Below are positions 31,410 to 47,163 of a stretch of DNA of 64,000 nucleotides, one piece after another (within the stretch, counting starts at the first letter, position 1; each line of letters opens with the position of its first letter). Both the position numbers and the translations under genes were made by a program. Source of the stretch: Rhodobiaceae bacterium. Lineage in GTDB: Bacteria; Pseudomonadota; Alphaproteobacteria; Parvibaculales; Parvibaculaceae. The notes under the pieces are model-generated. The model worked only from the letters and a program-made list of their open reading frames with translations, was not told the origin of the DNA and searched no databases. The stretch lies in contig CP030277.1 of assembly GCA_003330885.1 (NCBI GenBank), positions 558,001-622,000 on the forward strand, read 5' to 3'.

Positions 31410-32891
31410 ATGTCGGCAATAGATCACACAGGGGAATCAGAAAGCGGCTCGCAAGACAGGGTCCCCTTTGGGCATCTGGTCGCCTACGCGCAAATGACCT
31501 TGCCCCTCGCTGTGATTGGTCTGCCCATCGCCATTTACATCCCCGCATTTTATAGCGGGACACTTGGGTTGAACCTTGCCGCGGTCGGTGTGGTCCTCAT
31601 GCTGGCGCGTTTCTCTGACGTGATCACTGATCCGCTGATTGGACGCATGAGTGACCGGACGCGAGGCAGTTTTGGTCGCCGCCGACCTTGGATCGCCCTG
31701 GGCGTGCCGCTCATGGCGCTGTCCGCCTTCATGTTGTTTGTGCCAAGTGAACCAGTGTCGCTAGGATATTTGTTTCTCTGGATCTCAGCGATTTACCTCG
31801 GCTTCACGCTGATCACCATCCCCTATGGCGCCTGGGGCGCGGAGCTTTCGACCGACTATCGCGAACGTAGCCGCATTACTGGCGCGAGAGAGGTCTTCCT
31901 GCTGATTGGTCTGATCTCAGCCATCCTTATTCCTGTCGTGTGGGCCATTGTATCAGGCGCCGAAACGCAAGAAGGCGAACTAAATTCTGTTTCCAAAGAG
32001 GCGATGGCATCTCTCGGATGGATGGTGATCCTCCTATTGCCTCTCTGCGCGGCGATCCTGTTCTGGAAAATCCGGGAGCCCGCACCGCAGACGACGCAAA
32101 CAATTTCGTTGGCGGATGGTCTAAAAGCCATCATGCGTAATGGTCCATTTCGCCGCGTCCTGATCTCTACAATGGTGAGCGCATTGGCCGGATCATTGAA
32201 CGCTGCGGTGGCGATCCTGTTTTACGATCATGTGTTGAAACTGGGCGAAGCAGGTTTTGTGCTCATCCTCGTACTCTTTGGCACTGCGGCGCTCGGCTCC
32301 CCATTCTGGGTATCGCTGGGCAACAAGATGGGCAAGCATCGCGCGCTTTGCGTTGCTGTGTTCCTGTCAATGCTCGCATTCAGCTCGGTGCCGCTGGTTG
32401 TCTACTTCATCGTTCCCGTGTCGCCTGACTTTACCTTTGTCGCGATGTTCCTGATCACAATGGTGCAAGGCTTTGCCTTTGGCGCGGGGGCGATTTTGGG
32501 TGCTTCAATGCTCGCTGACGTTGTTGACTTGGACATGATGCGTTCGGGCGAACACCGCACCGGTCTCCTGTTTGCGTTCCTGGGGTTTGCACGGAAGTTC
32601 TTTGAAGCCGCAGGTGTTGGCATTGCGCTGCCGCTCATCGCGTTCCTGGGATTTGATCCCCAGGCGGAGGCGCAAACCGAAAGCGGGACGTTTGGCATTG
32701 TGATGGTCTATTGCCTGCTGCCTCTTGGCCTTTGGACCATCTCCGCCTTGGTGATTTGGAACTTCCCGATCACGGCCGAGCGCCTGACGCGCATCAGAGA
32801 AGCCTATGCGCGCCGCGCGGTAAGGCGGGGTGATGCAGAGCAGGGATCAGTCATTCCAGGCGTAACTGTGCAGCCGCTACCAGCGGACTAA
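31410..32891 (+). CDS. MFS transporter, glycoside-pentoside-hexuronide (GPH) cation symporter family
   Basis: A 493-aa protein with 12 predicted membrane helices. The loop 2-3 signature DPLIGRMSDRTRGSFGRRRPWI (within about 70-92) and the helix 5 region IPYGAWGAELSTDYRERSRITG identify the GPH family, which imports sugars or sulfonated and other organic acids with H+ or Na+. The substrate is unknown. The last six codons and the stop lie in the first copy of a 67-bp tandem duplication. Because the duplication starts within the gene but includes the stop, the protein end is unchanged. Confidence 0.9.
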   Translation: MSAIDHTGESESGSQDRVPFGHLVAYAQMTLPLAVIGLPIAIYIPAFYSGTLGLNLAAVGVVLMLARFSDVITDPLIGRMSDRTRGSFGRRRPWIALGVPLMALSAFMLFVPSEPVSLGYLFLWISAIYLGFTLITIPYGAWGAELSTDYRERSRITGAREVFLLIGLISAILIPVVWAIVSGAETQEGELNSVSKEAMASLGWMVILLLPLCAAILFWKIREPAPQTTQTISLADGLKAIMRNGPFRRVLISTMVSALAGSLNAAVAILFYDHVLKLGEAGFVLILVLFGTAALGSPFWVSLGNKMGKHRALCVAVFLSMLAFSSVPLVVYFIVPVSPDFTFVAMFLITMVQGFAFGAGAILGASMLADVVDLDMMRSGEHRTGLLFAFLGFARKFFEAAGVGIALPLIAFLGFDPQAEAQTESGTFGIVMVYCLLPLGLWTISALVIWNFPITAERLTRIREAYARRAVRRGDAEQGSVIPGVTVQPLPAD

Positions 32892-33001
32892 GGCTCAGGC
32901 GGTGATCAACAAGGATGAAACCCAGAAAGTCGCCGTGCAGCCGCTACCAGCGGACTAAGGCTCAGGCGGTGATCAACAAGGATGAAACCCAGAAAGTCGC
33001 C
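32868..33001. repeat. Perfect 67-bp tandem duplication across two convergent gene ends
   Basis: Bases 32868-32934 are repeated exactly at 32935-33001 (both begin GTGCAGCCGCTACCAGCGGA and end AAAGTCGCC). The unit contains the last codons and stop of the GPH symporter and, on the other strand, the last codons and stop of the HXXEE gene. The symporter uses the stop in copy 1 and the HXXEE gene uses the stop in copy 2, so neither protein is altered. Before duplication the two stops would have been about 3 bp apart. Complete identity suggests a recent event. Confidence 0.95.
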
Positions 33002-33468
33002 GTGATGATGATTGGCAAACTCACGACGGCCAGACCCACTGTCAAGCTAAGCGAACGCTGACTGAGCATGTTTTCTCGTGTCGCCTGACGCAGCAATAGT
33101 GAGCAGACCGGCAGGTTTATGAACAGCGCAGTACCGAGGCCTGGCACATAACCACCTGTTATGAAGGCGGCAGGGACATGGGGAATAAAAACATTCGCCA
33201 GGTAGATAGACGTAACGAAGCAGACCAGCCAGGTCTTGGTCCGCGAGGGCGTCCCGACAGACCCGGCGATGATGAGGGCCACCGACGCGAGGCTGACCAG
33301 CAGAAGGGCGACCTCAATCACTGGCAAGGCTGGTATTTCCAATGAAATGCCAAAGCGTTGCTGCAGTACCGTGCCGACGTGACCGTAAAGAGGAAGGGTC
33401 GCCCATTCTTCGAAATTGTGAAGGATCGTCGCAGGGATGAGAAGCCAGCGCAGAGTGGTGTAAGTCAT
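32962..33468 (-). CDS. HXXEE domain membrane protein
   Basis: A 168-aa protein with about five hydrophobic helices. The family-defining motif His-x-x-Glu-Glu is seen as HNFEEW at residues 18-23 in the first helix (IPATILHNFEEWATLP). The function of the family is unknown. It is the last gene of a minus-strand operon (thioesterase, LLM oxidoreductase, HXXEE), 18 bp after the LLM stop. Its stop lies in copy 2 of the 67-bp tandem repeat. Confidence 0.82.
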   Translation of the reverse strand: MTYTTLRWLLIPATILHNFEEWATLPLYGHVGTVLQQRFGISLEIPALPVIEVALLLVSLASVALIIAGSVGTPSRTKTWLVCFVTSIYLANVFIPHVPAAFITGGYVPGLGTALFINLPVCSLLLRQATRENMLSQRSLSLTVGLAVVSLPIIITATFWVSSLLITA

Positions 33469-33486
33469 CTCGCTGGCTCTCCCGCT

Positions 33487-34524
33487 TTAAGCGTGCGCTA
33501 CCTCGAAGGCTTGCGCCAGCAACTGATAGGAACGCTTCCGGGCTTCATGGTCTGGTGTGATGGTCAGGATGACAAAGTCATCGACACCATATTCCGCGCC
33601 CATCTGAAGAAGACGTCCCCGCACCTGTTCTGGTGTGCCGGTAATGCTGCGCTGCTTCACGCTCTGCAGCATCTGTACTTCGTCGGGACGGAGCGGAAAG
33701 GCGAGTGCGTCATCAAGCGACTTAAACGGCCCTGCCTTGTTTTGCAGGAGATGGAGAACCCACAGGTTCCGTGAAGCGGACTGGCGCTCGGCTTCTTCCT
33801 CCGTGTCAGCCACCATGACGGACACGCCGATCGACCCGCGTGGCTGCGAGGTAATGCCGGACGGTCGAAAGCTGTTGCGGTAAATCTCGAGTGGCGAGGG
33901 TCCAGCATCCTGATTGATGAAATGGGCGAAACAATACGGCATGCCAAACTGGGCCGCATAGGCCGCACCATCTGAGCTTGAACCCAGCATCCATAGATCA
34001 GGCATGCCCGGTCCGCGTGGAACCGCGTGGATGCCCTGATAGGGATGATCGACAGGTAGACCGCCCGCGTCGCCTTTGAGGCCCTGTGCGTCTTCCAGGA
34101 ATTGCTGCAGCAACTGAACCTGCTGCGGGAATACATCAATCCCATAAGCTTGAGGTCCCGGCTGAAGTGCGCGGCTGGTCTTCTGATCGGAACCCGGTGC
34201 GCGTCCAAGGCCCAGGTCGATGCGATCAGGGTAGAGGGCGTGCAGCACCCGAAAAGTTTCGGCAACTTTCAGCGGGCTGTAATGAGGCAGCATGACACCA
34301 CCAGACCCTACGCGAATGGTATTCGTCGCCGCCGCTATAGCGCCGATCATGATTTCAGGGGCAGAGCCTGCGAAAGAGGAACCGCTATGGTGCTCAGCAA
34401 CCCAATAACGTTGGTAGCCAGCAGCTTCGCAGGCGCGCGCAAGATCGATCGTCTCCTGCAGCGCTTGCGCGCCGGTGCCACCTTCGCGGATGGGGGATTG
34501 ATCGAGAGCGCTGAGCGTTACCAT
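33487..34524 (-). CDS. LLM class flavin-dependent oxidoreductase (luciferase-like)
   Basis: A 345-aa TIM-barrel protein starting MVTLSALDQSPIREGGTG (ATG complement of 34522-34524, with a GGTAGG upstream); an ATG three codons earlier is possible. Features include YWVAEHHSGSSFAGSAPEIMIGAI (split around 40-64), VGSGGVMLPHYSPLKVAE, the flavin-site DLGLGRAPG and WMLGSSSDGA. This is the MsnO8-like subgroup of bacterial luciferase relatives, which use FMNH2 from a separate reductase to oxygenate an unknown substrate. It is in an operon with a hotdog thioesterase upstream and an HXXEE protein downstream. Confidence 0.9.
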   Translation of the reverse strand: MVTLSALDQSPIREGGTGAQALQETIDLARACEAAGYQRYWVAEHHSGSSFAGSAPEIMIGAIAAATNTIRVGSGGVMLPHYSPLKVAETFRVLHALYPDRIDLGLGRAPGSDQKTSRALQPGPQAYGIDVFPQQVQLLQQFLEDAQGLKGDAGGLPVDHPYQGIHAVPRGPGMPDLWMLGSSSDGAAYAAQFGMPYCFAHFINQDAGPSPLEIYRNSFRPSGITSQPRGSIGVSVMVADTEEEAERQSASRNLWVLHLLQNKAGPFKSLDDALAFPLRPDEVQMLQSVKQRSITGTPEQVRGRLLQMGAEYGVDDFVILTITPDHEARKRSYQLLAQAFEVAHA

Positions 34525-34551
34525 GAGACGCATCCTACCATGTGTTTGGGG

Positions 34552-47081: not shown

Positions 47082-47122
47082 TGAGGCTCATGGTCCCCCC
47101 ATTGGGCCCCCGTGTCGATTGG

Positions 47123-47163
47123 TTTGTGTCGAATATTTTGTGTCGAATAGGTCCATGCATGGA
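47123..47163. promoter_or_regulatory. Direct repeat and palindrome in the gabD/DUF2817 divergent region
   Basis: TTTGTGTCGAATA occurs at 47123-47135 and again at 47137-47149 (period 14 bp), and a perfect palindrome TCCATGCATGGA follows at 47152-47163. A degenerate copy, CGTGTCGATT, lies at 47111. These sit in the 176-bp gap between the DUF2817 and gabD starts and look like regulator sites. Confidence 0.4.

Follow-up and report, generated by a model that had tools for sequence, protein, structure and literature searches.

In the window (the whole 64-kb stretch of DNA that was analysed), a 67-bp unit is perfectly doubled in tandem over the ends of two convergent genes, a transporter gene (GPH) on the plus strand and a gene for an HXXEE-motif protein on the minus strand. 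The two copies are exact, a relative carries a single copy, the proteins are unchanged and the duplication endpoints have 3 bp in common. We consider it highly probable that a recent, spontaneous and neutral tandem duplication took place at a GTG microhomology and was kept as no protein changed. The features of the locus are listed below.

31410..32891, plus strand: MFS_2/GPH-type transporter gene (GPH), 493 aa, intact, stop TAA at 32889-32891 in copy 1
32868..32934, no strand: copy 1 of the 67-bp unit, with the last 24 nt of GPH (VQPLPAD plus TAA), a gap of 3 bp, then a dead repeat of the terminal 40 nt of HXXEE
32892..32961, no strand: spacer between the two stops, now 70 bp; 3 bp in the single-copy relative G001
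32935..33001, no strand: copy 2 of the 67-bp unit, with a dead repeat of the terminal 24 nt of GPH, a gap of 3 bp, then the genuine terminal 40 nt of HXXEE
32962..33468, minus strand: HXXEE-motif protein gene (HXXEE), 168 aa, intact, stop at 32962-32964 (TCA on the plus strand) in copy 2
33002..33004, no strand: GTG, third occurrence of the first three bases of the unit, the 3-bp microhomology at the duplication endpoints
33487..34533, minus strand: luciferase-like monooxygenase gene (LLM); in the five genomes of the genus that lack HXXEE here, it and GPH converge directly

A sequence-only reading had described the locus as a perfect 67-bp tandem duplication over two convergent gene ends, with the stops of both genes inside the unit, and the coordinates bear out both points. 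The copies are adjacent and head-to-tail, identical at all 67 positions, and the match run at period 67 extends to 70 bases instead of 67 because the first three bases of the unit, GTG, recur directly after the second copy. With equal base frequencies, exact tandem copies of 67 bp are expected by chance about 3e-36 times per 64 kb. The repeat is the only exact one in the window with a unit of 14-1500 bp; one further, inexact array was found by TRF (14 bp, 2.8 copies, 84% matches, 47112-47150). Searching the genome with the unit at E up to 10 gave eight hits, namely the two adjacent copies and six matches of 14-21 bp with E of at least 0.2, and thus no copy elsewhere. A dispersed intergenic repeat element (REP-like) was rejected, since the genome holds no further copies of the unit. 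A 30-base core of the unit had no exact match among viral contigs, a collection that may leave out the window's own genome.

The family names given by the same reading also hold. The plus-strand gene matches MFS_2 (PF13347, E 1.7e-79), "GPH symporter" being that reading's label, and the minus-strand gene matches HXXEE (PF13787, E 8.3e-15). Each gene uses its own proximal copy of the unit, leaving both proteins unchanged as had been claimed: GPH has 493 aa and the end VTVQPLPAD in the window and in the relatives G001, G002 and G003, and HXXEE has 168 aa in both the window and G001. A scan of genome contigs with the HXXEE protein, a weak negative, found no relative.

We compared seven genomes of the genus (G000, the window's genome, to G006), sister species with one genome per species. 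A single copy, or a variable number of copies, had been predicted for sister strains, and G001, the one relative in which these two genes were found side by side (estimated contamination 6%), has the single-copy arrangement. Its convergent GPH and HXXEE genes share one unit, GPH ending at L003:2091 and the HXXEE stop beginning at 2095, with a gap of 3 bp. Against the window, G001 aligns in two blocks offset by exactly 67, and the MAFFT alignment contains one internal gap, of 67 columns, at the repeat; its unit is identical to that of the window at 45 of 67 positions. In all five of G002-G006, HXXEE is absent at the locus and the GPH and LLM ORFs converge directly with a 4-nt overlap. No tandem repeat was found at the locus in G001-G006, either exact (unit 10-500) or near (at least 75%, unit 30-500). 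Because G001 is single-copy and G002-G006 show no repeat, the most likely course is that the G000 lineage acquired the second copy. The putative single-copy ancestor rests on one direct outgroup (G001) together with five genomes that have the GPH end and no HXXEE there. A link between the duplication and the arrival of the HXXEE gene was rejected, as G001 has HXXEE with one unit.

The HXXEE gene itself is distributed patchily. It lies between GPH and LLM (32962-33487) in G000 and G001, both with the same altered LLM tail (EVAHA), and is missing at the locus from G003, the genome nearest to G000, and from G002 and G004-G006. An HXXEE-family match is present somewhere in each of the seven genomes. 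Between G000 and G001 the HXXEE proteins are only 60% identical, and the GPH proteins 95%. Such a distribution suggests that the gene was lost, or that alleles were exchanged by recombination.

Among the genomes compared, G003 is the nearest relative of G000, with DNA identities of 87.4% in GPH and 87.5% in LLM; the corresponding values are 82.3% and 80.0% for G001, and 82.8% and 82.9% for G002. The two copies of the unit differ at 0 of 67 positions, which sets an upper 95% bound of about 4.4% on their divergence. Because this bound is below the 12.6% that separates G000 from G003 over the adjacent GPH gene, the duplication would be recent on the genus scale, unless conversion keeps the copies alike. 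The earlier claim of recency is thereby supported.

We propose that one spontaneous 67-bp tandem duplication arose recently in this lineage and was joined at the 3-bp GTG microhomology, the route being possibly replication slippage, template switching or illegitimate recombination. It would persist since it spans a gene boundary and so alters no protein, which makes it presumably neutral. The probability that endpoints share at least three bases by chance is about 0.05, and at least five about 0.005; a 3-bp microhomology is only mildly beyond chance, so that microhomology is favoured and not proved. The base preceding the first GTG is T in G000, G in G003 and C in both G001 and G002, and the base preceding the second GTG is C. 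An ancestor with AACCGTG, as in G001 and G002, would have had 5 bp in common at the endpoints, CCGTG, although the nearest relative, G003, differs from this state.

The event resembles spontaneous short tandem duplications in its exact head-to-tail copy, in its occurrence in one lineage and not in the relatives examined, and possibly in the few bases common to the two endpoints. In the available part of a Salmonella chemostat study (PMC3411829), whose candidates were picked for long junction homology, five of eight tested duplications were verified, with homology of at least 11 bp, whereas only 3 bp are sure here. The available part of a study of E. coli mutation-accumulation lines (PMC10292909) reports tandem duplications as rare among structural variants, with none in 67 wild-type lines and one in 37 mutS-deletion lines; this rarity counts against the proposed explanation.

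To place the locus among others, we surveyed exact tandem repeats with units of 14-1500 bp in 2.864 Mb from five genomes. G000 contributed 864 kb (the window and 40 stretches of 20 kb), G002 contributed 800 kb, and G003, G015 and G047 gave 400 kb each. Gene ends were taken from a greedy choice of ORFs of at least 80 aa, with no gene caller. After merging the rows of one array, in which an 18-bp row of G002 was joined with an overlapping 23-bp array and eight rows in one G047 ORF became one locus, 11 loci remained. All six loci with units not divisible by three (67, 76, 23, 17, 17 and 29 bp) lie outside or across ORF ends. The five with units divisible by three comprise three inside ORFs (78 bp, 15 bp and the G047 ORF array) and two not inside (18 and 354 bp); all three loci inside ORFs thus have such units. 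Segments of 67 bp fall wholly inside ORFs in 84-86% of cases across the survey samples (84% in the G000 sample), and against random placement the six non-triplet loci give about 0.16 to the sixth power, near 2e-5 (hand calculation, with loci taken as independent and the 67-bp figure used for all). Within the table itself, the contrast of 0/6 with 3/5 inside ORFs has a probability of 10/165, about 0.06 by hand calculation, and is only suggestive.

Because of this placement (6/6 and 3/3), the survival of duplications where proteins stay untouched is a general pattern in the survey, and it is what one would expect to remain once purifying selection has acted on genuine duplications. It agrees with frame-filtered tandem repeats in bacterial genomes, with non-triplet units only outside or across gene ends and triplet units also inside genes, and we see no substantive difference from them. 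Among the literature matches listed, nothing concerned such placement, which is no claim of its absence from print.

Other repeats were also observed. A second exact doubling in G000, of 76 bp (L057:16219-16372; G000:C1:2461219-2461372), covers the stop of a putative TetR-like regulator gene, as read from its translation. It also takes in the beginning of the next ORF, which is co-directional, has 60 aa and is a gene only possibly. Searched at E 0.001, the six other genomes of the genus gave no match to the DNA around this doubling. At L051:8971-9501, a minus-strand ORF has internal repeats, including an exact in-frame tandem unit of 78 bp; these presumably resemble the repeats of lysine/alanine-rich histone-H1-like proteins. 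Some 4.4 kb at L031:15168-19600 contain a 282-bp repeat whose copies are approximate, at most 92% alike, and may encode a repeated-domain surface protein.

Several other explanations were weighed against a recent neutral event. The doubling might have been selected for a function, separating colliding transcription units or giving each mRNA a new 3' tail. It did widen the gap between the stops from 3 to 70 bp, and on the plus strand RNA spanning the two copies has a slightly better fold than shuffled sequence, with z -1.49 and 15 of 200 shuffles doing as well; one copy gives z -0.92. But the single-copy plus strand of G001 folds about as well (z -1.28, the other strand giving -0.83), and the minus strand in the window shows no advantage over shuffled sequence (z 0.62 and 0.64). 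In 32700-33600 neither promoter-like nor terminator-like sites were found, and an intrinsic (bidirectional) terminator, sought there by a consensus scan for a G+C-rich stem followed by a T run, was rejected with 0 sites. Rfam returned no family at gathering score, only two weak snoRNA hits of 18-19 bits against thresholds of 50 and 90, and a structured RNA was rejected on the absence of a family and the unremarkable folding. The relatives examined also do without the repeat at this locus. None of these results points to a function, and we regard a selected one as very unlikely. A further idea, even less probable in our judgement, is mutual antisense control in trans between the GPH and HXXEE mRNAs, created in one step by the doubling. 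With the two gene tails duplicated as one piece, a GPH mRNA running through copy 1 and an HXXEE mRNA running through copy 2 would carry perfectly complementary 67-nt stretches, and their pairing would need no overlap of the two transcripts on the DNA.

The repeat could alternatively be, as the earlier reading allowed, an artefact of assembly, in which contigs whose ends overlap by about 70 bp were put together unmerged or a polishing error doubled the unit. Among the exact tandem loci of the G000 sample, three have units over 30 bp, and two of these merely double a unit, one of 67 and one of 76 bp; in G002 (800 kb) and G003 (400 kb) no unit over 30 bp was seen, which counts in favour of an artefact. 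Yet G000 is one contig, 100% complete with 0.1% contamination; long reads easily span the 137-bp array; and the doublings differ in length, so that no single k-mer size accounts for both. Furthermore, neither breaks an ORF of at least 80 aa, although 84% of 67-bp segments in the G000 sample lie inside such ORFs, and this sparing of ORFs speaks against an artefact because selection does not filter artefacts. We judge an artefact unlikely, albeit the least unlikely of these alternatives. An old duplication, its copies kept identical by gene conversion and one of them lost in G001, draws some support from the readiness with which tandem 67-bp copies exchange or delete. It would need an event before the split of G000 and G001, continual homogenisation and a precise loss, and one recent gain is simpler; its probability appears slight, on a par with that of antisense control.

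A recent neutral duplication does not depend on the convergent arrangement. The earlier suggestion that harmlessness may explain the persistence is supported, both proteins being intact, with one refinement: convergence is unneeded, and the survey contains co-directional cases. Several non-coding loci, such as the 17-bp ones in G002 and that of 18 bp in G003, sit between co-directional ORFs or at their ends. By geometry alone, a duplication over any gene boundary, in the order A-a-i-b-a-i-b-B, spares both genes A and B; all that sets convergent ends apart is that promoter and ribosome site stay uninvolved as well.

In summary, the 67-bp doubling is probably an ordinary mutation, recent and neutral. 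By itself it carries little weight, and it offers a clean worked example of how tandem duplications come to be seen where no protein changes. The tempting reading that convergent ends shelter the repeat is refined accordingly: the protection comes from any gene boundary, of which two convergent ends are just one case.
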